Below are positions 6,834-40,018 of a stretch of DNA of 40,018 bases, piece by piece; positions within the stretch are counted from its first letter, which is position 1; each line of letters begins with the position of its first letter. The position numbers and the translations under genes are program-made. The DNA comes from a virus. Below the pieces are notes generated by a model that worked only from the letters and a program-made list of their open reading frames with translations, had not been told where the DNA came from and ran no database searches. The stretch lies in IMG/VR virus record IMGVR_UViG_3300009156_000053, positions 1-40,018 of that record. One strand, given 5' to 3'.

Positions 6834-8128
6834 GCAGCACCGTCATTCTCGTTCCCCGCCGGGAGGGCTATAAGGACCGCGACCGCATCTGGGAGTGGGT
6901 GCGGGGCTGGTGGGAACGAGAATTCAGCAAGTTCCCCGTGGTGGAGGGCCACCACAACGTCGGCCTGTTCAACCGGAGCGCAGCGGTGAACACCGCTGCG
7001 ACGTTGGCTGGTGACTGGCGAACGGCCATCATCATCGACAGCGACGTCATCTGCCACCCCCCCAACGTGTTCGAGGCCATAGAACTCGCCAACAGCAGCG
7101 GGCGCATGGTGCTGCCCTATGACGTTCGCAAGGACCTGAACGCCATGGGCAGTGAAGCCATCATGACGGGCTACAAGGGCAACTGGAACAAGTTCGTCAG
7201 GCTGAGGTACACAGACGGTGTCAGCAACGTGGTCGTGCTGACAAGGGCGTTGTGGGACGCCGTTGGCGGGCTCGACCCGGCTTTCCAAGGGTGGGGGTGG
7301 GAGGACAACGCCTTCCGCGCGGCCTGCTGGACCTTTTCCGGTGGACCGGAGCTCCGCATACCGGGGGAGGTGTGGCACTTCTACCACCGCAGCGCCAAGA
7401 CCGAGGCCAAGGGCACCCCGAGTTGGGCGGCGAACCAAGCCCGCGCCGAGCGCTACCGCACCAACACGGGCGACAAGGACGCCATACGGGCCATTCGGGC
7501 AGAGACGGTGTCAGTCGACCACGGCAGCGGCATTCCCCGCATTCTCCACAGGGTCGTGCCAGCAGACACCACAGTGCAGGCAGAGGAATACTGGCGGACC
7601 GCACAACGTCTCCATCCCGACTGGCGCTTCATGACGCATAGGGACCCACTCGTACCAGACGCGTACCCGCTCACAAGCGGCGCATGGGACGCCGTAGAAG
7701 CCGGAGCGCAACTCGCAGACCTTGTCCGGTTGGAAGTTCTTTACGTCCATGGCGGCGTGTATGTGGACCAGGACTATGAGCCGTACCGGCCGTTCGACAG
7801 CCTACTGGGCGCGCAGGTGTTCGCGGCGTATGAGGACCGTACCAGCGTGCCGAACGCGGTACTCGGCTCTGTGCCCAACCACCCCGCGATCAAACAGTGT
7901 CTAGACCTTGCCGTGCAGCGGGTGAAGGCGCATAAGGGGGTCTGGAACGCTGGACCCGGTGTCACCACACAGGTGTTCACCAGCCGGGACGACGTGCTGT
8001 TGCTTCCACCCGGCGCCTTCTACCCCTATCACTACAAGGAGAAGGAGAAGGCAGGGGTAGACCATAAGCGGGAGCAGCCATGGGCTTTTGGCGCTCACCA
8101 CTGGTGGCACAGTTGGAAAGGGCATTGA
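6830..8128 (+). CDS. two-domain glycosyltransferase (GT7/GT27-like plus GT32-like), apparent ATA start
   Basis: The protein has two sugar-transferase domains. The N-terminal half (about residues 1-225) is a GT-A fold that opens with a STVILVPRREGY strand. It carries IIIDSDVI (metal-binding D70-S-D72) and GWGWEDNAF (about 154-162), the GWGxED signature of galactosyltransferase-like enzymes. The C-terminal half (about 228-432) begins IPRILHRVVP and has ADLVRLEVLYVHGGVYVDQD with a DxD at D313-Q-D315, as in GT32/OCH1-like sugar transferases. Coding clearly begins upstream of the first standard start (GTG 6899), which would delete the first strand. The only candidate at the right place is ATA 6830, overlapping the previous stop as ATAA. 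Acceptor and sugar are unknown; position suggests a virion glycan. Confidence 0.85.
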   Translation: MSSTVILVPRREGYKDRDRIWEWVRGWWEREFSKFPVVEGHHNVGLFNRSAAVNTAATLAGDWRTAIIIDSDVICHPPNVFEAIELANSSGRMVLPYDVRKDLNAMGSEAIMTGYKGNWNKFVRLRYTDGVSNVVVLTRALWDAVGGLDPAFQGWGWEDNAFRAACWTFSGGPELRIPGEVWHFYHRSAKTEAKGTPSWAANQARAERYRTNTGDKDAIRAIRAETVSVDHGSGIPRILHRVVPADTTVQAEEYWRTAQRLHPDWRFMTHRDPLVPDAYPLTSGAWDAVEAGAQLADLVRLEVLYVHGGVYVDQDYEPYRPFDSLLGAQVFAAYEDRTSVPNAVLGSVPNHPAIKQCLDLAVQRVKAHKGVWNAGPGVTTQVFTSRDDVLLLPPGAFYPYHYKEKEKAGVDHKREQPWAFGAHHWWHSWKGH

Positions 8129-8739
8129 CGGTGAACGTGTGGGACCACATCTATACGGACAACGTGTGGAACGGTGTGGAGTCCTTGAGCGGGCCGGGGA
8201 GCGGAAGCGCCAGCACCAGTAGTCTGCCAGCCATGCTCCAAGACTTATGTGCGCGCTTGCACATTCGCAGCGTACTGGACGTCGGCTGCGGGGACGGCTA
8301 CTGGATGCCTGATCTTCCGGGGTACATCGGTATCGACGTGAGCAAGGTCGCTATCGACCTGAGCCGCCTACGCCACCCGAGTCGCAGTTACATTCGCTGC
8401 AACCTGCTGGACACCACCATGCGCGCAGACCTCATCATTCTGCGGGACGTGGTGCAGCACCTGTCGTTAGAGGAGGGGACCGCGCTGGTGCATGCCGCGC
8501 ATGAGCGCTGCCAATGGCTGCTCGCCAGCACCTATGTCGGCGGGGAGAACACCGGCCTGAACCGGGAGCAGCAGGAGCGCGGCTACGGCTACCCCAATGA
8601 CCTGACGGTAGACCCGTTCCACTTGGGCCAGCCCGTGAATACGTACTTCGACGGGGCCGGGTGGCAAGACCCTGCCGAGGTACGGGACAAGCGCAAGGTG
8701 CTCGGGCTGTGGACGGGCGTGCCCTACCCCACCCGTTGA
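8125..8739 (+). CDS. class I SAM-dependent methyltransferase
   Basis: This protein of about 204 residues has a Rossmann methyltransferase core. VLDVGCGDGYW is the SAM-binding glycine motif, GYIGIDVSKVAIDLSR gives the acidic residue after strand 2, and ADLIILRDVVQHLS matches motif IV/post-IV. An N-terminal SLSGPGSGSASTS segment is typical of small phage methyltransferases found beside sugar-transfer genes. It lies between two glycosyltransferases, so methylation of a sugar or sugar-modified protein is more likely than DNA methylation; there is no PC or DPPY catalytic motif. The start is TTG 8125 (overlapping the previous stop as TTGA) or GTG 8131, which has better spacing from GGAAAGGG. Confidence 0.82.
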   Translation: MTVNVWDHIYTDNVWNGVESLSGPGSGSASTSSLPAMLQDLCARLHIRSVLDVGCGDGYWMPDLPGYIGIDVSKVAIDLSRLRHPSRSYIRCNLLDTTMRADLIILRDVVQHLSLEEGTALVHAAHERCQWLLASTYVGGENTGLNREQQERGYGYPNDLTVDPFHLGQPVNTYFDGAGWQDPAEVRDKRKVLGLWTGVPYPTR

Positions 8740-9671
8740 CGGTCGCCTTCTACGCGAGCGAGGTGCATTTCGCCGACCATTTGCTCCCGCTGTATCGGGC
8801 GCTGCCACCGGAGCGCCAAGGCCCGTTCATCATGCCGGGGGAGCCGGTCAAGGGTCGCTACATGCATCGCAGCGTGGTCGTGGCGGGCTACGGCGACTTG
8901 AAGAACAGTCGGCGCTGGTTCCCCATGGCACGGCGCGCTCTACTCCAACACGGCAGCGGACAGTCGTACTGGGGCACCACTCGCGGCCGGGGCCACCCGA
9001 GTTACAGCGGCGGGGCCGACCATTACGACGTGAGCCTGTTCCTGTGCCCCAATGAGTTCAGCGCGAGCAAGTGGCGGCAGGTGTACCCCAAAGCGAACGT
9101 GGCGGTGGTGGGGAGCCCCAAGGTGAGCACGCTGCCCACCACGGCTCCAGCCGAGCCAACGGTGGCAGTGTCTTTCCACTGGCAATGCGGCCTGCTCGAG
9201 GAGACCAAGAGCGCATACCCGGCCTTCCGCTTGGCCTACCAGACACTGGCCGAGCGGTGGCCGGTGGTGGGCCATGCTCACCCGCGCGCTCAGCGAATGG
9301 TGAAGCCCATGGCGCTGCGAGCCAAGGTGCCGTGGTATGAGCAGTTCGCGGACGTGTGTGCGGCTGCGAGCGTGTACGTGTGCGACAACAGCAGCACGCT
9401 GTTCGAGTTCGCCGCCACCGGCAAGCCGGTCGTGCTGCTGAATGCGCCGGGGTATCGTAAGGACGTGGACCATGGCATGCGCTTTTGGGAGCTCGCCACC
9501 ATGGGACCACAGGTGGACCATATACGCGACCTTGCGGGGGCAGTAGAGTTCGCGCTGGCCGACCCCGCGACACAGCGGGCAGAGCGGGAGCGTGTGGTGG
9601 ACCTCGTCTATCCGGTGCGTGCGGGTTCGAGTGAACTGGCGGCAGCGGCCGTGCAGGAGTGGGCACGGTGA
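8736..9671 (+). CDS. GT-B-type transferase, CDP-glycerol glycerophosphotransferase-like
   Basis: This protein of about 311 residues has the layout of GT-B transferases. An N-terminal VAFYASEVHFADHLLPLYRA strand-helix is followed by RRALLQHGSGQSYWG. The C-terminal nucleotide-binding half carries AAASVYVCDNSSTLFEFAAT and GKPVVLLNAPGY. The DNSSTxxEFxxxGKPVV pattern is characteristic of CDP-glycerol:polyglycerophosphate transferases and UDP-GlcNAc epimerase relatives. TTG 8736 overlaps the methyltransferase stop as TTGA, the same TTGACGGT string as at 8125; GTG 8709 is an alternative. It closes a three-gene cassette inserted between capsid and connector genes, and probably modifies a virion protein or an attached glycan. 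Confidence 0.78.
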   Translation: MTVAFYASEVHFADHLLPLYRALPPERQGPFIMPGEPVKGRYMHRSVVVAGYGDLKNSRRWFPMARRALLQHGSGQSYWGTTRGRGHPSYSGGADHYDVSLFLCPNEFSASKWRQVYPKANVAVVGSPKVSTLPTTAPAEPTVAVSFHWQCGLLEETKSAYPAFRLAYQTLAERWPVVGHAHPRAQRMVKPMALRAKVPWYEQFADVCAAASVYVCDNSSTLFEFAATGKPVVLLNAPGYRKDVDHGMRFWELATMGPQVDHIRDLAGAVEFALADPATQRAERERVVDLVYPVRAGSSELAAAAVQEWAR

Positions 9672-10219
9672 CGGCCAAGTTACTGACCGTCGACGACCTG
9701 CGGGCGCGCATGCTGACCACCAGCGCCATGAGTGACGAGGCCCTACAGGGCATACTCGACGGTGCCGAAGCCGATATCGACCAGTGGTGCGGCAGGCTGA
9801 CGTTGGGCAGCGGCGACCAGTGGACCACCGTGGAACAGCACGACTATGGGCGCGTGTTCGGCCAGAGCGTGTTCCGGCTGGACCAGTACCCGGAGGTGGT
9901 GCTGGAAGTGGCCGTGTATGACGACCTCGAGAATGAGACCATTCTGGAGGAAGGGCGAGACCTCGACTACGTGGTGGACGGGCAACTCATTCGCCGCTAC
10001 GGCGCCTTGTGGGGTCACCACAGTCGGGTGACCTACGTGCCGCTGAACGACCTGAGCCAGCGCCGCAACGCCCTCGTGCTGCTGTGCCAGTTGGAGCTCA
10101 ACGTGCAGCCGGGACAGGGCTTCACGGGTGCGGCCACATGGCAGGAGACCTACAAGGACTACGAGACCGAGAAGCAGCACATTCTGTGGTCCCTATGCCC
10201 GCCCTTCCCATTCGCGTGA
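9668..10219 (+). CDS. head-tail connector protein (gp6-like)
   Basis: This 183-residue protein should sit under the portal and join head to tail. The N-terminal helical half (KLLTVDDLRARMLT, ALQGILDGAEADIDQWCGR) matches the gp6/gp15 connector pattern, in which small helices are followed by a central beta insertion. GTG 9668 overlaps the upstream stop as GTGA, with AGGAG (9655-9659) eight bases upstream. Its distance from the portal is unusual because the sugar cassette lies between capsid and connector. Confidence 0.8.
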   Translation: MTAKLLTVDDLRARMLTTSAMSDEALQGILDGAEADIDQWCGRLTLGSGDQWTTVEQHDYGRVFGQSVFRLDQYPEVVLEVAVYDDLENETILEEGRDLDYVVDGQLIRRYGALWGHHSRVTYVPLNDLSQRRNALVLLCQLELNVQPGQGFTGAATWQETYKDYETEKQHILWSLCPPFPFA

Positions 10220-10220
10220 C

Positions 10221-10505
10221 ATGGGTGTCCACCATGCGTTCGTCAATCACAAGCCAGACGGGCCAGACACCAGCGTGGTGCGGCCCAGTGACTGGAACGC
10301 CGAGCACGAAGGTGCCGTGTACCACCATGCCCAAATGGTCCCGTCCACGGTGTGGACGGTGACGCACAACCTCGGGCGGCACCCCAATGTCACCGTACTC
10401 GACTCCGCAGGCAGCCAAGTGGAAGTCGACGTGTTCCACACCAGCACCAACGTGCTCACCCTGACGCTCGCCTATGCGGTGTCGGGGACGGCGGACTGTT
10501 CGTAG
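10221..10505 (+). CDS. small fibre-associated protein
   Basis: This 94-residue protein starts at ATG 10221, one base after the connector stop. The N-terminus carries HKPDGPDTSVVRPSDWNAEH, a pattern seen at the start of phage fibre proteins. The C-terminal half (TVTHNLGRHPNVTVLDSAGS, then VEVDVFHTSTNVLTLTLAYA) is a small beta domain common at the end of phage fibres. A related domain closes the next gene. It could be a fibre tip, adaptor or decoration protein; whether it sits on head or tail is not visible. Confidence 0.65.
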   Translation: MGVHHAFVNHKPDGPDTSVVRPSDWNAEHEGAVYHHAQMVPSTVWTVTHNLGRHPNVTVLDSAGSQVEVDVFHTSTNVLTLTLAYAVSGTADCS

Positions 10506-10519
10506 CGGAGGCATAGGAC

Positions 10520-11878
10520 ATGGCACGGTCGTTCCTGGTCCCTATCGACCTGAACAAGTTGGAGTTGCTCCAGCCGCGACTCCAGCAGTTGAGCAGCGAC
10601 CCGTCCACCCCCGTTAGCGGGCAGGTCTACTACAACACCGCCGACAACGCCATCCGCTTCTACAACGGCACCGTCTGGATCATCCTCGGACGGCTGAACC
10701 AGATCACCGCGCCCACGGCGTCGGTATCGATGAACAACCAGCTCATCACCAACCTGCTGGACCCGGTGTCCGCGCAGGACGCCGCCACCAAGAACTACGT
10801 CGACACGTTCAGTCAGGGCCTGTCTTGGAAGGACAGCGTGCGCGCTGCCACCACCGCGAACGGCACGCTCGCCACGGCGTTCGCCAACGGGCAGGTCATC
10901 GACGGTGTGACCCTTGCCACCGGTAACCGCATTCTCCTGAAGAACCAGACCACCGGCGGCGAGAACGGCATCTATATCGTCGCGTCCAGCGGTGCGCCCG
11001 CGCGCGCCAGCGACGCCGACACCGGCCCAGAGATCGTCGGGGCGGCGGTGTTCGTCGAGGAAGGCACCACGCAGGCCGACACCGCGTGGGTGAACCAGAC
11101 CAACGCGCCCATCACCATCGGCACGACAGCCACCACATGGGCGCAGTTCGGCAGCGGTACGTCGTACACGCAGGGCGCCGGTATCAGCATCAGTGGCAAC
11201 ACCATCGCCATCGAGAACAGCGGTGTGCTGCTCCCGGCCCATGGCGGCACCGGCCAAAGCACGCTGACCGACCATGGCGTGCTCGTGGGCAGTGGCACCG
11301 CCGCTGTCGACGCGCTGACGGTGGGCACCACTGGCACCGTGTTGCGTGGTGTGACGGGAGCCGACCCGGCCTTCGGGCAGGTGACTCTCACGACCGATGT
11401 GACGGGTACGCTCCCCGTGACCAATGGCGGTCTCGGAGTCGCCACCCTCACCGACCATGGCGTGGTGCTCGGCAGTGGCACGGCAGCCGTCGACATCACG
11501 GCTGCCGGGGCGACCGGGACGGTGCTGCGTGGAGCCGGTGCAGCAGCCGACCCGTCCTTCGGGCAGGTGGTGCTCACCACCGACGTGACGGGTGTGCTGC
11601 CCGTGGCGAACGGCGGCACGAACGGGAACACGGCGGCAGCCGCCAAGACCAGTCTTGGCTTTATGACCCGCTTCGCCCAGACCTACGGGGACGGTGCGGC
11701 CACCTCCTACAACATCGACCACAACCTCGGCACGCTGGACGTGCTGGTGCAGGTATTCCGCAACAGCGACGGTGTCGAGGTGGAGGTCGACGTGACGCGC
11801 AGCACCACCAACCGCGTCATTCTCATCCACGCGGTGGCGCCCACGAGCAACCAGTACCGCGTCATCGTGCTCGGCTAG
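10520..11878 (+). CDS. fibre-like protein with tandem repeats
   Basis: This 452-residue protein resembles phage tail-fibre proteins. The N-terminus contains GQVYYNTADNAIRFYNG and LLDPVSAQDAATKNYVD, both standard fibre modules. A beta domain follows (KDSVRAATTANG, GVTLATGNRILLKNQT, FVEEGTTQADTAWV). Residues about 237-365 hold two tandem 61-62-residue repeats plus the start of a third, each opening LPxxxGG and containing LTDHGV and LTTDVTG. The end (DHNLGTLDVLVQVFRNSDG) is a small beta domain like that of the preceding gene. GGAGG at 10507-10511 precedes ATG 10520 by eight bases. Its place within the head-completion genes means it could be a head fibre rather than a tail fibre. Confidence 0.82.
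   Translation: MARSFLVPIDLNKLELLQPRLQQLSSDPSTPVSGQVYYNTADNAIRFYNGTVWIILGRLNQITAPTASVSMNNQLITNLLDPVSAQDAATKNYVDTFSQGLSWKDSVRAATTANGTLATAFANGQVIDGVTLATGNRILLKNQTTGGENGIYIVASSGAPARASDADTGPEIVGAAVFVEEGTTQADTAWVNQTNAPITIGTTATTWAQFGSGTSYTQGAGISISGNTIAIENSGVLLPAHGGTGQSTLTDHGVLVGSGTAAVDALTVGTTGTVLRGVTGADPAFGQVTLTTDVTGTLPVTNGGLGVATLTDHGVVLGSGTAAVDITAAGATGTVLRGAGAAADPSFGQVVLTTDVTGVLPVANGGTNGNTAAAAKTSLGFMTRFAQTYGDGAATSYNIDHNLGTLDVLVQVFRNSDGVEVEVDVTRSTTNRVILIHAVAPTSNQYRVIVLG
11228..11596 (+). repeat. two tandem ~185-bp coding repeats in the fibre gene
   Basis: Unit 1 (11228-11410, 61 codons) and unit 2 (11411-11596, 62 codons) are similar at DNA and protein level. Both carry LTDHGV, GSGTAAVD, TGTVLRG, FGQV and LTTDVTG in the same order. 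A third unit begins at 11597 but diverges after the LPVANGG segment. Such repeats can expand or contract by recombination and change fibre length. Confidence 0.8.
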
Positions 11879-28663: not shown

Positions 28664-28913
28664 GTGCTCCCCTTTTGCCTGTCTTCATCTCAGCCAATGT
28701 GCTGACCGTACCGGTCCACTCGAGCCACACGTATATGCCCTCATCCTCCTTGTGGGTACGAAGCCGATAGCCCTTGGTGCGGACGAACTGGCTGACATAG
28801 CCGAGGCGTCCGCTGCTGAATGAGTCGTCGAGCCACACCATCTCCCCGTCGTCGAGGAGTTGGTGGAGCAAGGCGGGCGCGAAGCCCCGGCCCGCGTTGG
28901 TGTTCTGGCTCAT
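28635..28913 (-). CDS. hypothetical protein
   Basis: This 92-residue protein overlaps the next gene by 29 bases and starts at ATG 28913 within the end of the ParB-like gene (ATGA). It shows FAPALLHQLLDDGEMVWLDD, GYVSQFVRTKGYRLRTHKED and a basic tail. The beta-strand-rich middle may form a small barrel. No family recognised. Confidence 0.52.
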   Translation of the reverse strand: MSQNTNAGRGFAPALLHQLLDDGEMVWLDDSFSSGRLGYVSQFVRTKGYRLRTHKEDEGIYVWLEWTGTVSTLAEMKTGKRGAHVQEQERGV

Positions 28914-29716
28914 TCACCTGTCTCCACTCGATGACTGGGAAGTTGCTTGGCTGGCGAGAGCCGGGTGTTGTACGTGAGCCGTATGGCCTCGGTCACGGTG
29001 GTATGGCCGGTACTCTGCACACTGCCGCGCTCCGCGATGATCTCTTGGGCAAGCCGGTTCAGCGTGCTCGGGCTGGTGTTCACCATGACCTGCGCGAGCC
29101 GTGCCCGGTCGTAGTTGGGGTGCGGCCGGTACGACTTGATGAAGTGGGCGAGGGCATGCAGGACGGTGCCATAGAAACGGTTCTTGTCGACCGTCCAGTT
29201 GGTCACGATGAGGTCCAGCACCTCCCCGAGCAGGTCCGGCCCCATCTCATAGACGCGCATGAGCGCCCCTACGGCCTGGATGTCGTAGTCCGGCCCTTGG
29301 CCCATGGTCAGGCCACGGCTGTACACGTCGTGCTGGACGCCGAGCGCCACAGGGTCCCGCGCGGTCACTTGTGCGCGGAACAAGTCCAACACGGTCATGT
29401 TCCGGCGGTTCTTGTTGAACCGAATGAACAGGCTGGCTTCGTCCACTTGGCTCAGGTTCTGTAGCACCGTGGCGTCGGCATACTCCACGCCCAGTTCTCG
29501 CATGGCTGCGACCCTGTGGCCTCCGTCGAGACACCACAGCGCATTGCCCCGGTGGCTCACCACCAGCACTCCTGCCAGCAGCGGCTCCCACCCGCGCACC
29601 AGTTCGCGCACGAACTCGGGCTTGGGCTGCCGCTGGTATTCGCTGTCCATGCGGACCCGCTCCACAGGGACCTGCCGGTAACTCTTGACGATGGGGTACT
29701 GCTCCACACCCCCCAT
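28910..29716 (-). CDS. ParB/sulfiredoxin-fold protein
   Basis: This protein of about 268 residues has a ParB-like nucleotide-binding domain in its first third. VPVERVRMDSEYQRQ is the opening strand and loop, and ALWCLDGGHRVAAMRELG contains the DGxHR signature at residues 64-68. RFNKNRRNMTVLDLFRAQVT follows, typical of phage ParB-like proteins that lack a partition partner. The rest is helical. ParB-fold proteins in phages can have CTPase or nuclease activity, and some occur in DNA-modification gene clusters. ATG 29716 is chosen because 61 bases separate it from the upstream stop; GTG 29707 is an alternative. Confidence 0.75.
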   Translation of the reverse strand: MGGVEQYPIVKSYRQVPVERVRMDSEYQRQPKPEFVRELVRGWEPLLAGVLVVSHRGNALWCLDGGHRVAAMRELGVEYADATVLQNLSQVDEASLFIRFNKNRRNMTVLDLFRAQVTARDPVALGVQHDVYSRGLTMGQGPDYDIQAVGALMRVYEMGPDLLGEVLDLIVTNWTVDKNRFYGTVLHALAHFIKSYRPHPNYDRARLAQVMVNTSPSTLNRLAQEIIAERGSVQSTGHTTVTEAIRLTYNTRLSPAKQLPSHRVETGE

Positions 29717-35923: not shown

Positions 35924-36910
35924 TTATCCCTTGTACGCCTCGGCCTGCATGCTCGCCAGGAGTGCCTCCTTGTGAGCAGCAGCACGCTCGGTCTGTGTCT
36001 CGAGGAACTCCCGGCCACGAGCATATTCCTCGTCGGCACTGCCACACTCGGCCATTCGTGTCCGATAGTAGGACACCACCGATATGCGCTCTGCTCCGCA
36101 CTTGGTATGGTCGGGGTGCAGGTCCAGACTGCCCATTGGCTCCTTACAGACGCCGCACTCCATGTACGTGTTGCCATGCCACTGGTGCGCGTCCATGAGG
36201 AGCAGGTCCCCGTGCTGCATGTTCACGCCGATGCGATACTCCGGGAACACGAACAGCCCGCCGCTGTAGTTCCCCTTCCGTAGCACGGCGAGGGTGCTGA
36301 ACCCCTCGTCCAAATCACCCGCATCGGTATGGACCCCGGTCGGATAACTGCGGTTGACCGTGACCGTGGTAAAGACCGTGTCGGCTATGCGCCAGTCGGG
36401 GTGGGTCTTGGCAGCGAACCCCTCCTGCACGGCGTAGCGCTCGGGGACGTGGACCTTGAAGTATTCGTTGATGGACTGGAACAGGGGGAACAGAGCCTGC
36501 CACTTGTAGAGCTCCTTCCCACTCCACGCTGTCAGCCGACACCGCATCTGATGGGCCGGTGAGCGGTCGAACGCCCCGATGATGCTGCTATTCACATGGG
36601 GGGTCCGGGTGCGGGTGCTCTTGCCCTTGGTGTAGACGCGCTCGTACCCGCTGGCGTCCCCTCGGTTGTCGCTGCTGCCCTTGCTGACGATGTACAGAAT
36701 GTCGTGAATCTCGTCGAGCATGAATGTGTCGAGGGCACCGGGCAGGTACTTCGCCAGCAGCCGTCCGTCGGGCAGGCGCACCTCGGTCGGCCCCACCAGC
36801 ATGGTGTCCAAGAAGTCCATGGTGGGGAGTTTGCCCCGGACAGCCTCCATGTCCTTGGCATTGGTCTTGGTGCGAACACGGAGCTCGGTGAAGCGTGGGT
36901 AGTCCTTCAT
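35924..36910 (-). CDS. TET/JBP-family 2-oxoglutarate/Fe(II) dioxygenase
   Basis: This 328-residue protein has the double-stranded beta-helix dioxygenase core. VNRSYPTGVHTDAGDLDEGF carries the first two iron ligands (H194 and D196). YSGGLFVFPEYRIGVNMQHG leads to DAHQWHGNTY, where H242 or H245 is the distal ligand (H245 fits best). RISVVSYYRTRM supplies the 2-oxoglutarate-binding arginine (R275 or R283). This HxD...H...R pattern with the GVHTDxGD and GGxFVFPEY elements matches the phage branch of TET/JBP enzymes, which oxidise 5-methylcytosine or thymine in DNA. The cluster with a TET-associated glycosyltransferase strongly suggests DNA modification. A 128-base gap follows the gene. Confidence 0.88.
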   Translation of the reverse strand: MKDYPRFTELRVRTKTNAKDMEAVRGKLPTMDFLDTMLVGPTEVRLPDGRLLAKYLPGALDTFMLDEIHDILYIVSKGSSDNRGDASGYERVYTKGKSTRTRTPHVNSSIIGAFDRSPAHQMRCRLTAWSGKELYKWQALFPLFQSINEYFKVHVPERYAVQEGFAAKTHPDWRIADTVFTTVTVNRSYPTGVHTDAGDLDEGFSTLAVLRKGNYSGGLFVFPEYRIGVNMQHGDLLLMDAHQWHGNTYMECGVCKEPMGSLDLHPDHTKCGAERISVVSYYRTRMAECGSADEEYARGREFLETQTERAAAHKEALLASMQAEAYKG

Positions 36911-36914
36911 GGGT

Positions 36915-37304
36915 CTAGTCTATCGCAACCTTGGGTGCTGTCAACCGTTTCTTGTACTTCATCCCGACCTTGGTCAGCGCGGCTTTGCGATTCTTCGCAA
37001 GCAACAGGTCTGGATTGTTGCGGCCCCATTCTGCGAGGGCTAGCCCGGTCGCACGGAGTTCTTCCGGGCTCCGCCTAGCCGCGCTGGCTTTCCCGGCCAG
37101 CCTCGCCTGTGCCCTCCTGCCTCGCTTCCCTATCTTCTTGGCATGCTCTGTCCAACCCATGTGCGGCTTGTCTTTCAGCATGTCCAGCACCGTCGCTCGT
37201 CGGACTGCCGACAGACACTCTGGAGAGCACGTCAGGCGCCACCCATACCCGCTCGGCCGGGGCGCCGTGGGCGCCCCGCACGACACGCATGGCGGTCTAG
37301 TCAC
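36915..37304 (-). CDS. zinc-ribbon/basic protein in the modification cluster
   Basis: This 129-residue protein has CVSCGAPTAP and LTCSPECLSAVRR at the N-terminus, a likely zinc ribbon. A highly basic helical region follows (GKRGRRAQARLAGKASAARR; NRKAALTKVGMKYKKR). It resembles DNA-binding parts of phage nucleases, but no catalytic HNH or GIY motif is visible. GTG 37304 overlaps the kinase stop. It could direct the modification enzymes to DNA or bind DNA as a regulator. Confidence 0.6.
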   Translation of the reverse strand: MTRPPCVSCGAPTAPRPSGYGWRLTCSPECLSAVRRATVLDMLKDKPHMGWTEHAKKIGKRGRRAQARLAGKASAARRSPEELRATGLALAEWGRNNPDLLLAKNRKAALTKVGMKYKKRLTAPKVAID

Positions 37305-37824
37305 GGAACGCCTGTGCCACTGGACCTTGGAACAGCCGCGCCGTCAGGTGCGGGGGCAGACTGCTGCGAATGTCCTGCGCGCCGAAGCGAATGGACAGGT
37401 CCTTGAACTTGGTGCGGCGCCCCTTTATCCACGCTTCGTCTTGGTGGCTCCCACGCTGCGCCCGCCGTGCGGCAGCAAGGTCTTCCCCCTCTAAGTGGTA
37501 CAGCCACAGCCGGTACCCGAGGCCAGCCATGGCGTCGAAGAAGGCGCCGTTGCCCAAGCGGTCCCCCTCGCCCAAGACAAGGTCGGGCCGTATGGCTTCG
37601 ATCCACTTGACCACCTTGGGCTGCGCGTCCAACCCCAGACTGTCGGTCCCCGGATAGTCGACACGGTCGGCACCCAGTTCCACCACGCCGCAGTCGTAGC
37701 GACGGAAGTAGAAGGGGTGGTCGTAGTCCTCGTATGCCTGCTCTCCTTTGAGCGCCCGCACCACCGTCGACTTGCCGATGCCGGGTTCGCCCATGACGTA
37801 CAACAGGTGCTTCTGGTCACCCAT
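37297..37824 (-). CDS. P-loop kinase-like protein
   Basis: This 175-residue protein has LLYVMGEPGIGKSTVVRAL with Walker A at G12-S19. VDYPGTDSLGLDAQPKVVKW and DLVLGEGDRLGNGAFFDAMA follow, and then a lid-like arginine/lysine-rich QRGSHQDEAWIKGRRTKF. This is the small P-loop kinase layout found repeatedly in actinophages. Related P-loop proteins phosphorylate hydroxymethylated bases during DNA hypermodification. Here the substrate is inferred only from the neighbouring TET and glycosyltransferase genes. A nucleotide kinase is the main alternative. ATG 37824 overlaps the upstream 57-residue gene. Confidence 0.72.
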   Translation of the reverse strand: MGDQKHLLYVMGEPGIGKSTVVRALKGEQAYEDYDHPFYFRRYDCGVVELGADRVDYPGTDSLGLDAQPKVVKWIEAIRPDLVLGEGDRLGNGAFFDAMAGLGYRLWLYHLEGEDLAAARRAQRGSHQDEAWIKGRRTKFKDLSIRFGAQDIRSSLPPHLTARLFQGPVAQAFRD

Positions 37825-37990
37825 CGTGCAACGCCTCCTTGATCTCCTTGATCAACTCGTCCCGCCCGCAGGTGCAGCGCCCGCTGTCCATCGGCATGTA
37901 GATGCTACAGCGAGGCTGCTTGAGGTGCCCGCCCTGCTCCATGTATGGGAGCGTCCTCTCCAGCAGACGTAGTAGTTCCCCCTCACCCAT
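37817..37990 (-). CDS. 57-residue conserved phage protein
   Basis: This small protein has ELLRLLERTLPYMEQGGHLK followed by CSIYMPMDSGRCTCGRDELI. The C...GxCxCGRDxL pattern with a preceding helix is familiar from many actinophage mini-proteins of unknown function. Both ends overlap neighbouring genes (kinase and phosphatase) in the same ATGGGTGA arrangement. An AAGGAG lies ten bases before ATG 37990. It may bind zinc and could link the kinase and phosphatase activities. Confidence 0.65.
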   Translation of the reverse strand: MGEGELLRLLERTLPYMEQGGHLKQPRCSIYMPMDSGRCTCGRDELIKEIKEALHDG

Positions 37991-38498
37991 CGTTCAGTGG
38001 CTCCTTCCAGATGAGATCGCTGTCCAACACGTCTTGGACTAGGTTCGGGTTGATGGCGCTGTTGGGCACCGCGTCCTTGACGATGTCCAGCGCGGACCGT
38101 CCCGACACTCGCATGAACTCTCGTACCAGACGCGCACACAGCCATGCGCTACGGTTCCGGCCAGCCTCGCAGTGAACAAGGACCACGTGTCCTCGCCGTA
38201 GCAGGTAGACCAAGAACCCCACGAGCGCGGTGGCTTCGTCGGGCGCATAGTCGGTCTCCATGTGCCAGTTGAGGTAGATGGCCGGGACGCCACGCGCCTT
38301 GCGCGTGTGGTGAATGTTCCGACTGTCGGCCATGTCGCTGTCGACCGGTCGCCATAGGTTCACCACCACGTTCACCCCGAGGCGGTGGATGAGCTCCTGC
38401 TTGGCCGCGTGCGACCACGTGAGGAAGTGCCCCCGCTGATACAACTTGCCGGGGAGCACCTCGTTGACGCCATGACGGCGCTTGTCGGTGGGGTTCAC
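37983..38498 (-). CDS. dual-specificity-type protein phosphatase
   Basis: This 171-residue protein has the cysteine phosphatase signature HCEAGRNRS, with catalytic C110 and phosphate-binding R116. A possible general-acid region lies in LNWHMETDYAPDE. The N-terminal part (LPGKLYQRGHFLTW; LGVNVVVNLWRPVDSD) matches dual-specificity or atypical tyrosine phosphatases. GTG 38498 overlaps the small upstream gene as GTGA. The enzyme could remove phosphate from proteins, nucleotides, RNA 5' ends or a phosphorylated base or sugar intermediate. Its place between a P-loop kinase and a glycosyltransferase makes a role in the modification pathway possible. Confidence 0.82.
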   Translation of the reverse strand: MNPTDKRRHGVNEVLPGKLYQRGHFLTWSHAAKQELIHRLGVNVVVNLWRPVDSDMADSRNIHHTRKARGVPAIYLNWHMETDYAPDEATALVGFLVYLLRRGHVVLVHCEAGRNRSAWLCARLVREFMRVSGRSALDIVKDAVPNSAINPNLVQDVLDSDLIWKEPLNDG

Positions 38499-38596
38499 CA
38501 GAACAGAATGAGGTTGGCCTCTGCCAAGGACACGCCCGAGCGCTTGCGCTTGGCCTTGGCTGGCGCGAGGGTCAACGTGACACGGTGCAGATTCAC
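38495..38596 (-). CDS. 33-residue coupled mini-protein
   Basis: GTG 38596 overlaps the glycosyltransferase stop as GTGA, and its own TGA overlaps the phosphatase GTG in the same way. The product begins MNLHRVTLTLAPAKAKRKRS and ends ANLILFW. It fills the gap of the operon exactly, which supports translation. It may be a coupling peptide or small regulator. There is no motif. Confidence 0.45.
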   Translation of the reverse strand: MNLHRVTLTLAPAKAKRKRSGVSLAEANLILFW

Positions 38597-39387
38597 TTTG
38601 ATATCGGTGACGACGGTGTCAAAGGTGAACTGAACGTTCCCCCCTGACGGAACCGCCACCACTGAATTCGTGTTACTGGAACTCCCTGCTTGGAGCGTGT
38701 AAGTGAAACCAGTCCCGGATGAGTTCGTTCCCACTTGTGTACCAATGCCTCCCCTGCGTACTCTGCTGCGCCGCGCTGGTAGTCCGGCTGGCAGCCTCCT
38801 TCCTTGTGGGACATGTGCCCCGTGTGGAACACGAACTGCGGCAACTTGAGCGTCTGGTGGCCGCTGGTCAGGATCTGTAACGTCAGGTCGGTGTCCTCGT
38901 GGAGGAAGGGCCAGTAGTTCCACGGGCCGTCCGTCCGCAGGAGTATGGCGTAGCCCACTCGCTTGTTGGGTATGGCGCTGTCTTCCATCCAGCCGTACTG
39001 GCGGAGCATGCCGGTGACCGCAGCCACGCCACCGGCCACGTCCTCCACACCCGCCAGCCAGTCGGTCCATGGCACGACGCGGTACGGGTCCCCATACCAG
39101 CGGCGTGTGCTCGGCTTGGTCAGGTCGTCGTCTAGCATCCAGATCTTCTCGACACCACGGCTGCGTGCGTTGCGGAGAATCCACTGGCGCGTCGGGCCGA
39201 TGCCTTGGACGTCTACGCCCATGACCCACGCCTGCGGGTACACGCACATGTAGGTCGCCCGCTCCTCCCGTGGCACCACCACGAGGGGAATGCGGCCCTC
39301 GTCCAAGAGTTGCTCTATGGTGCTGGACTTTCCGGCTCGTCCCCGGCTTGGGACGTAGACCTCGGTAAGCCAGCCGTCCTCTTGCAA
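38593..39387 (-). CDS. TET-associated glycosyltransferase (TAGT-like)
   Basis: This protein of about 264 residues has a GT-A fold of the type found with phage TET enzymes. VYVPSRGRAGKSSTIEQLLD opens the domain, GIGPTRQWILRNARSRG is the conserved helix, and KIWMLDDDLTKP contains the metal-binding D86-D88. FLHEDTDLTLQILTSGH and FVFHTGHMSHKEGGCQPDYQ give the later acidic and histidine motifs. These match glycosyltransferases that transfer a sugar to 5-hydroxymethylcytosine. AAGGAG eight bases before TTG 39387 decides the start; longer in-frame starts lack it. The last ~20 residues are less conserved. Confidence 0.83.
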   Translation of the reverse strand: MQEDGWLTEVYVPSRGRAGKSSTIEQLLDEGRIPLVVVPREERATYMCVYPQAWVMGVDVQGIGPTRQWILRNARSRGVEKIWMLDDDLTKPSTRRWYGDPYRVVPWTDWLAGVEDVAGGVAAVTGMLRQYGWMEDSAIPNKRVGYAILLRTDGPWNYWPFLHEDTDLTLQILTSGHQTLKLPQFVFHTGHMSHKEGGCQPDYQRGAAEYAGEALVHKWERTHPGLVSLTRSKQGVPVTRIQWWRFRQGGTFSSPLTPSSPISK

Positions 39388-39551
39388 ACCACGCACTCCT
39401 TTCGGCCTGCTATAGAAGGTCCCTGCTCGTAGTAGTCGCCGGGTTGCATGAAGAACAGACGACCACAATGCGTGACTACCTCCTCATCGTTGGTCCAGCG
39501 TGTCGCGACGATGTGCCAGAGATTCTGACGGTCCCGGTACCACTCGATCAC
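39315..39551 (-). CDS. small CxxC protein
   Basis: This 78-residue protein carries WHIVATRWTNDEEVVTHCGR and ECVVCKRTAG, a likely zinc site common in actinophage small proteins. GTG 39551 overlaps the previous gene's stop as GTGA. Its 3' end overlaps the glycosyltransferase by 73 bases; the last ~20 residues look like overlap sequence. Function unknown. Confidence 0.55.
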   Translation of the reverse strand: MIEWYRDRQNLWHIVATRWTNDEEVVTHCGRLFFMQPGDYYEQGPSIAGRKECVVCKRTAGLPRSTSQAGDEPESPAP

Positions 39552-39745
39552 GGCTCGCAGCGACGGCACCGCTTCGTCTGCGGCGGGTCGTCCAGCACCA
39601 CCAGCCCGTGCCCGTCGACGTCTGGCTCCAGCCGCCGCCCGCACTTGGTGATGGCTGCGTCGCTGATGGTCGATTCGACGAGATGGTAGCGCGGTTCAGG
39701 CTCCTTGCCGGGGTCGTCGCGCATGGCCCACTGCCCGATGTCCAC
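39548..39745 (-). CDS. small CxxC protein
   Basis: This 65-residue protein shows RYHLVESTISDAAITKCGRR and a closing TKRCRRCEP, so C...CxxC could bind zinc. GGAGG five bases before GTG 39745 decides the start. It resembles its downstream neighbour in overall design (HxxV...CGR...CxxC), which may reflect a duplicated small gene. Function unknown. Confidence 0.6.
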   Translation of the reverse strand: MDIGQWAMRDDPGKEPEPRYHLVESTISDAAITKCGRRLEPDVDGHGLVVLDDPPQTKRCRRCEP

Positions 39746-39746
39746 G

Positions 39747-40018
39747 TTATCCTCCGACGTAGTCGTACTTGAGGTCGGACCAGTTCTGCCCCCGGTCTCG
39801 TAGCCAGCGGGACAGGTCGTGGCGCACGCCGCTCCAGCCTTGCAGTTCGCCAAGGGAGGCCGCTGGAAACAACTCTGCGCGGGCTTCCCACAGCCGTGTG
39901 CTGAACCCCCGGTCTTCCCACCAGCGGGCCTTAGAGCCCGTTAGATAGGCCAGTTCTTGGTCGATGGTGCGTCCGGGGTACTGGTGCCGGTCCTCGTATG
40001 CCTCCCGGTACTCGCACA
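39747..40018 (-). CDS. partial gene running off the right edge
   Basis: The reading frame is open to the right edge, with a TAA at 39747-39749, so only the C-terminal ~89 residues are visible. They contain YPGRTIDQELAYLTGSKARW, SLGELQGWSGVRHDLSRWLR and end DLKYDYVGG. The Trp/Arg-rich helical character is not one I can assign. The stop lies one base before the next start. Confidence 0.6.
   Translation of the reverse strand, partial: CEYREAYEDRHQYPGRTIDQELAYLTGSKARWWEDRGFSTRLWEARAELFPAASLGELQGWSGVRHDLSRWLRDRGQNWSDLKYDYVGG

Follow-up and report, generated by a model that had tools for sequence, protein, structure and literature searches.

The stretch of DNA analysed here (the window, 40,018 nucleotides of IMG/VR virus record IMGVR_UViG_3300009156_000053) ends inside a leftward operon, all of whose genes lie on the minus strand. 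Four enzyme genes have this operon in common: a TET/JBP dioxygenase (328 aa; 35924..36910), a P-loop kinase (175 aa; 37297..37824), a dual-specificity phosphatase (171 aa; 37983..38498) and a TAGT glycosyltransferase (264 aa; 38593..39387). A fifth, truncated gene (39747..40016) supplies the C-terminal 89 codons of an amino acid:DNA transferase (ADDT), the full 336-aa gene of which is found at positions 8631-9641 of locus L063 on an overlapping contig, G001, that is identical to the window (100%) over 6,930 b. A preliminary description of this DNA had placed TET and TAGT in one leftward operon covering 35924-39387; the operon and the genes in that range are as described, but its extent is greater, as it runs past 39387 and beyond the window end into the ADDT gene. 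The five main genes have pN/pS values of 0.35-0.76 relative to loci L003 and L004, and hence are under purifying selection. A DNA-level search for close named phages gave no match.

Several small open reading frames are interspersed among these genes. A zinc/basic 129-aa frame between TET and kinase (36915..37304, with a weak HNH-like PHROG match, E 0.013), a 57-aa CxxC frame (37817..37990) and a 33-residue peptide have zero homologues in the other fetched loci, and for this reason we reject them as parts of the system and treat them as accessory. A small Cys-rich frame overlapping the TAGT start (39315..39644) has a homologue at the same place in L003 (phmmer E 5e-19).

The dioxygenase carries a Tet_JBP domain (PF12851, E 1.8e-19; 70 bits against a Pfam cut-off of 34.9). 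The residues first picked out from the sequence (H194, D196, H245, R275 and R283) are present as stated: the first four make up the Fe(II) HxD...H triad and the 2OG-binding Arg, and all five are invariant in 51/51 aligned clade members, while R283 is replaced by Asp in the clade of C5-MTase-linked TETs. The TET profile gave no match to PDB sequences. The AF2 model (pLDDT 89.5) has its best structural matches in TET2 (Z 21.5), CMD1 (19.6), NgTET1 (18.8) and CcTet (18.6); TET-type matches span Z 21.5-18.5 and no AlkB exceeds 14.8, so that by predicted structure the fold is closer to TET, CMD1 and NgTET1 than to other 2OG oxygenases. The structural comparison with known TETs that the preliminary description had called for thus puts TETs ahead of AlkB, and its counter-possibility, a prolyl hydroxylase with a protein substrate, we consider improbable, there being no prolyl hydroxylase among the structural matches listed, where the TET-type enzymes stand well above the rest.

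The glycosyltransferase matches PF20691 (E 1.4e-20; 74.6 bits against a cut-off of 27.5) and phrog_842 (beta-glucosyl-HMC-alpha-glucosyltransferase; E 8e-25), and starts at a TTG codon with a Shine-Dalgarno sequence. Its assignment as TAGT-like on the strength of D86-D88 holds: the DxD-type motif D86-D87-D88, like E164-D165, is invariant in six aligned relatives. A single-sequence scan for close TAGT relatives returned only the overlapping contig itself, or nothing new. In T6, TAGT is known to use glucosylated hydroxymethylcytosine as its substrate (PMC13216743). The phosphatase (PF00782, E 3.2e-10), which retains an intact HCxxGxxRS loop, is kept with TAGT in L003, L004 and L005; the two genes are paired in 4/4 loci having both ADDT and TAGT. 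The kinase matches PF18751 (E 9.4e-19), and is a putative 5-hydroxymethyl-pyrimidine DNA kinase, for which 5-hydroxymethyl-dU may be the substrate.

The ADDT of the window phage is divergent (about 17-20% identity to ADDTs of the PLP/FAD type) and alone matches no Pfam family. The PF18724 ADDT profile matches 35/36 of its homologues, however, and therefore no fewer than two of the three nearest (64%, 62% and 47% identity). Its predicted fold matches PDB 8z2m with Z 17.8 (next unrelated chain, 9.6), and its profile also matches 25qc and 8z2m. According to its title, 8z2m is the 5-PmdU glycinyltransferase of phage PaMx11; the solved members of the family come from the 5-PmdU pathway. By homology and its predicted PUGT/ADDT fold, the 336-aa gene encodes an ADDT.

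Comparison of TET loci reveals two clades. Among 62 loci with TETs related to that of the window phage, the conserved core is ParB, ADDT, a tailoring slot, kinase and TET, in that order; the kinase is present in 50/62, ADDT in 46/62, ParB in 50/62 and a C5-MTase in 1/62. The separate Melnitz TET clade has a C5-MTase in 66/71 loci, and ADDT and ParB in 0/71. After dereplication at 80% identity the difference persists, for the C5-MTase (1/39 versus 11/12; Fisher p 3e-9) as for ADDT (30/39 versus 0/12; p 2e-6). Elsewhere the slot contains PLP, FAD or NlpC-like enzymes; here TAGT and the phosphatase take the place that a PLP or FAD enzyme usually has. The gene set had been called unusual, but is less so: kinase and TET belong to the conserved core, TAGT and phosphatase fill the variable slot, and the three mini-genes of that set are not conserved. 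No PF00145 C5-MTase was found in the window or in G001, although a phage C5-MTase could be missing from a joined record that may be incomplete. PF00145 scores above cut-off in 4/48 clade records, in none of them near TET. For PF00303 (thymidylate synthase homologue), a search covering G001 and 19 other clade records gave none, and none of the window genes annotated by Pfam or PHROGs has a thymidylate synthase match.

We propose that this operon of ParB, ADDT, TAGT, phosphatase, kinase and TET is a cassette that hypermodifies DNA bases after replication, most likely thymine, a reading to which we assign a probability of about two-thirds. The enzyme families, the operon and the conserved gene order are given by sequence, profile or predicted fold; for the chemistry we infer the following order. 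TET would first act on a pyrimidine of the phage DNA, most probably thymine, and hydroxylate its 5-methyl group, yielding 5-hydroxymethyl-dU; the P-loop kinase would phosphorylate the hydroxymethyl group; and ADDT would exchange the phosphate for an amino acid. TAGT may then place a sugar on a hydroxyl of the adduct, or on hydroxymethyl groups that stay unphosphorylated or are made so by the phosphatase. The product would shield phage DNA from restriction and other defences. A fuller version, which we regard as less likely than not, has the same hydroxylated thymine bearing both an amino acid (through kinase and ADDT) and a sugar (through TAGT), with the ParB-like protein choosing sites after replication, and a branch resembling base J in those relatives that have only ParB, TAGT and TET.

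The preliminary description saw a likely cytosine hypermodification island. That the island, with TET and TAGT as its basis, serves DNA-base hypermodification is well supported, but the cytosine part is not, nor is the proposed conversion of 5mC to 5hmC followed by sugar addition: since characterised relatives of the adjoining kinase and ADDT act on 5-hydroxymethyl-dU (PMC6449724; PDB 8z2m title) and the window and G001 contain no C5-MTase, that chemistry is unsupported. The target base is therefore, on comparative grounds, probably thymine rather than cytosine.

Within thymine chemistry, TAGT might instead glycosylate TET-made 5hmU directly, the kinase and ADDT working at other sites and the phosphatase keeping 5hmU free. 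Five related loci, which combine ParB, a TAGT-like glycosyltransferase and TET without kinase, ADDT or C5-MTase, agree with such a route, as does the constant company of phosphatase and TAGT in the loci with ADDT; but TAGT here occupies a slot filled elsewhere by tailoring enzymes that act after ADDT, and no phage with glucosylated 5hmdU had been reported by 2019 (PMC6449724). We consider this variant, which does not exclude the preferred reading, unlikely. Slightly less probable again is that 5mC, from the host or from an unseen phage gene, is oxidized by TET to 5hmC, which kinase, ADDT and TAGT would then decorate. Activity on cytosine has been reported for phage TET (PMC12730594, citing Burke et al. 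2021), the TAGT of T6 acts on glucosyl-hmC, and a PF18751-like kinase occurs near some C5-MTase-linked TETs (23/71 loci; 1/12 dereplicated). The residue three after HxD, considered as a discriminator of thymine from cytosine use, is Asp in both TET clades and so does not separate the two. Against cytosine stand the missing C5-MTase, in the window and its overlapping contig, near TET in the 48 clade records and in the complete genome of phage Zemanar, the 5-PmdU origin of the solved ADDTs, and the fact that ADDT and ParB never occur in the C5-MTase-linked clade. Finally, action of the dioxygenase on protein or RNA, amid unrelated metabolic genes, is very improbable: only the general 2OG-dioxygenase fold and a PHROGs label (tRNA-modifying enzyme) for the Coopervirus TET family are compatible with it, while every one of the top structural matches is a TET/CMD1 enzyme that acts on DNA, and TET is conserved beside ADDT and kinase in many phages.

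Phage TETs thus appear to inhabit two worlds, one tied to cytosine methyltransferases and the other to ParB, ADDT and kinase without them. If thymine hypermodification is the correct reading, the TET route would spare a phage that relies on the host polymerase the need to make hmdUTP for thymine hypermodification. From the exchangeable slot (PLP, FAD, NlpC-like, or TAGT with phosphatase) one would predict a family of DNA bases not yet described, and new enzymes that place sugars or amines on DNA. Direct thymine hydroxylation by prokaryotic TETs, of which we found no literature report in phages, becomes testable, with Zemanar on the M. smegmatis laboratory strain mc2 155 as a cultured stand-in for the uncultured window virus.

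This kind of system is already known, mostly as prediction; the variant with TAGT and phosphatase is new. Like the window phage, the cultured mycobacteriophage Zemanar, a Coopervirus, has ParB, TET, ADDT and a PF18751 kinase together (adjacent, as gp1-gp4); neither PF00145 nor PF00303 occurs in its complete 71-kb genome. Its gene order differs (ParB-TET-ADDT-kinase), there is no TAGT or phosphatase among the four genes, and its TET is very divergent, on a branch too long for tree placement; the existing annotation of the set reads queuine tRNA-ribosyltransferase, hypothetical and terminase small subunit. Cooper gp2 has been used as a phage TET (PMC12730594), and the literature searched gave no paper on DNA analysis of Coopervirus. 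Rhodococcus phage Tonitrus, annotated with a thymidine hypermodification system (PMC11955845), likewise groups ParB-like, TET/JBP, aGPT-Pplase2 (ADDT-type) and 5-hmU kinase genes, but its set, known from annotation only, has five genes, one of them hypothetical, and names no glycosyltransferase or phosphatase. The core, whose loci have almost no C5-MTase, Zemanar, which has none, and the Tonitrus annotation together point to TET-initiated hypermodification, probably of thymine. In the cytosine system of C5-MTase, TET and TAGT (Burke et al. 2021, as cited in PMC12730594), the TET and TAGT families are shared with the window cassette, which differs in lacking a C5-MTase, in having ADDT and ParB, and in the separate clade of its TET.

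Glutamicibacter phage Montesquieu, whose ADDT is 48% identical to that of locus L010, has a PLP enzyme and PF18751 kinases; it lacks a TET but carries a pyrimidine hydroxymethylase, so that TET and hydroxymethylase look interchangeable as sources of the hydroxymethyl group. In kinetoplastids, base J is synthesized by JBP1/2 and JGT; the window cassette similarly joins a TET/JBP hydroxylase to a sugar transferase, with thymine as the proposed base, although the glycosyltransferase family is, as far as known, a different one, and kinase, ADDT and phosphatase are additional here. The hypermodified-thymine phages proceed from 5hmdU through a 5hmdU DNA kinase to transferases (PMC6449724). The pathways of M6, ViI and PaMx11 resemble the window cassette in that a kinase and then an ADDT-type transferase act on a 5-hydroxymethyl group in DNA (PMC6449724; PDB 8z2m), but these phages incorporate 5hmdU made at the nucleotide level, whereas the window TET would add the hydroxyl group once thymine is part of the DNA. 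We therefore propose that the cassette works like, rather than belongs to, the classical thymidine pathway, with TET taking the place of the dUMP hydroxymethylase.

The window is a single IMG/VR virus record of 40,018 b whose structural genes (terminase, portal, major head protein and tape measure) run rightward from about 0.3 to 25.5 kb, the gene direction being leftward from 26 kb on. The preliminary description had placed a TET dioxygenase and a TET-associated glycosyltransferase (TAGT) within 35924-39387; both are real, with Pfam matches far above cut-off (PF12851, E 1.8e-19; PF20691, E 1.4e-20), and the catalytic residues it assigned are correct and invariant across the clade. Between the two genes, Pfam profiles identify a kinase (PF18751, E 9.4e-19) and a phosphatase (PF00782, E 3.2e-10). 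The main cassette genes have pN/pS values of 0.35-0.76 against the comparison loci L003 and L004 and are thus under purifying selection. For the small ORFs between them, homologues outside this virus were not found among the fetched loci, except for the ORF at 39315-39644, which has one in L003. Elsewhere in the window, the region 6899-9671 (+ strand), with the major head protein on one side and the head-tail genes on the other, encodes two glycosyltransferases (PF04488/PF02709; PF04464) together with a SAM methyltransferase; these probably serve virion glycosylation, apart from the DNA module. About 6 kb from the cassette (28910-29716, - strand) is the gene for a second ParB-like protein (DUF6551; PF20188, E 1.6e-16).

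An overlapping contig, IMGVR_UViG_3300050511_000080 (loci L002 and L063), matches the window end with 100% identity over 6,930 b and extends about 11.1 kb further. The added stretch carries RecT, YqaJ and ParB-like genes as well as a 336-aa gene that sits immediately before the TAGT region in the operon and whose final 89 codons occupy window positions 39747-40016. Alone, the 336-aa protein matched no Pfam family; 35 of its 36 aligned homologues matched PF18724 (amino acid:DNA transferase, ADDT), and its homologue profile matches the solved structures 25qc and 8z2m. Compared by fold, its AlphaFold model (pLDDT 94.7) matches phage PaMx11's 5-phosphomethyl-dU glycinyltransferase (8z2m) at Z 17.8, the next chain scoring 9.6. 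Given the ADDT profile and the fold match to 8z2m, the operon contains relatives of thymidine hypermodification enzymes that act on 5hmdU.

Related TET loci were fetched from viral contigs (61) and bacterial genomes (two, one of which, from Streptomyces africanus, has the same coordinates as L014). Gene order is strikingly regular across them: ParB, ADDT, a slot for tailoring enzymes, kinase and TET, the last often followed by the same gene (cluster 3), probably a packaging gene. What fills the slot varies by locus: a PLP enzyme (PF00291), an FAD oxidoreductase (PF01266), an NlpC-like protein, or TAGT with phosphatase. This last pair occurs with ADDT in four loci, the window virus included (L005 has TAGT after TET), the phosphatase accompanying TAGT in 4/4. 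Kinase, ADDT and ParB are present in 50, 46 and 50 of 62 related loci, and a C5-MTase, scanned for with one query sequence, in 1. Minimal ParB-kinase-TET cassettes without ADDT were also seen (L011, L013, L026), whose product could stop at the phosphomethyl base.

We consider thymine the probable target base (roughly 0.7-0.75). TET requires a 5-methyl pyrimidine, for which thymine already qualifies, and no C5-MTase was found in the window or overlapping contig (PF00145) or in the complete genome of mycobacteriophage Zemanar, which favours thymine. So does the membership of the ADDT and kinase families in the 5hmdU pathway (PMC6449724; PDB 8z2m). Phage Montesquieu has a pyrimidine hydroxymethylase but lacks TET, as if the two enzymes were alternatives, and its ADDT, which shares 48% identity with the one in locus L010, lies next to a PLP enzyme and PF18751 kinases; that the hydroxymethylase seems to stand in for TET again argues for thymine, as does the same reading by the genome authors of a Rhodococcus phage with a similar set, ParB/TET/aGPT-Pplase2/5hmU-kinase (PMC11955845). 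Against thymine stands cytosine, the base originally proposed: phage TET is reported to act on cytosine (Burke et al. 2021, cited in PMC12730594), the T6 TAGT works in a cytosine context (PMC13216743), and an Asp near the TET active site does not discriminate T from C.

A search with the TET of the Methylophilales phage Melnitz gave 71 loci, of which 66 have a C5-MTase nearby (by the same single-query scan) and none has ADDT or ParB. When 48 whole records from the window virus's TET clade were searched with the Pfam model PF00145, 4 held a C5-MTase above the cut-off, none near TET. With an 80% identity cut-off for dereplication, the groups still differ (C5-MTase, Fisher p 3e-9; ADDT, 2e-6), these values expressing association and not independent events, as sequences within a clade share ancestry; single exceptions aside, the two TET groups are separate in the tree. 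A PF18751-like kinase lies near some C5-MTase-linked TETs (23/71 loci, 1/12 dereplicated; for example L075:7557-8087), hinting at phosphorylated 5hmC.

In the most probable scheme, TET would hydroxylate T in replicated DNA, the kinase would phosphorylate the hydroxymethyl group, ADDT would exchange the phosphate for an amino acid, and TAGT would add a sugar. The phosphatase might convert unused phosphomethyl bases back to hydroxymethyl, or work on the sugar donor. ParB, conserved at the cassette head, may choose the modification sites.

Five loci (L030, L032, L040, L044, L062) carry ParB, a TAGT-like glycosyltransferase and TET, the last at about positions 10001-10900 in most of them, but lack kinase, ADDT and C5-MTase; they are candidates for a phage base-J-like pathway, and no glucosylated 5hmdU had been reported from a phage by 2019 (PMC6449724). 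Microbacterium phage Glamour (L068, 3674-7256) has a TAGT relative whose neighbours include a kinase and a weak homologue of thymidylate synthase but no TET, which places TAGT in another, non-TET modification cluster.

Zemanar shares ParB, TET, ADDT and kinase with the window virus as gp1-gp4 (L069, 1-3465): gp2, annotated queuine tRNA-ribosyltransferase, is the TET, gp3, annotated hypothetical, the ADDT, and gp4, annotated 'terminase small subunit', the PF18751 kinase (E 9.5e-73). Many cluster B mycobacteriophages carry this kinase as gp1, under the name adenylate kinase. This kind of system is already known: TET-primed hypermodification was reportedly predicted computationally by Iyer et al. 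in 2013, and the annotation of the Rhodococcus phage (PMC11955845) includes a comparable gene set. The ADDT/kinase core with TAGT and phosphatase, found in none of the named phages searched and in only four loci, is a variant of it.
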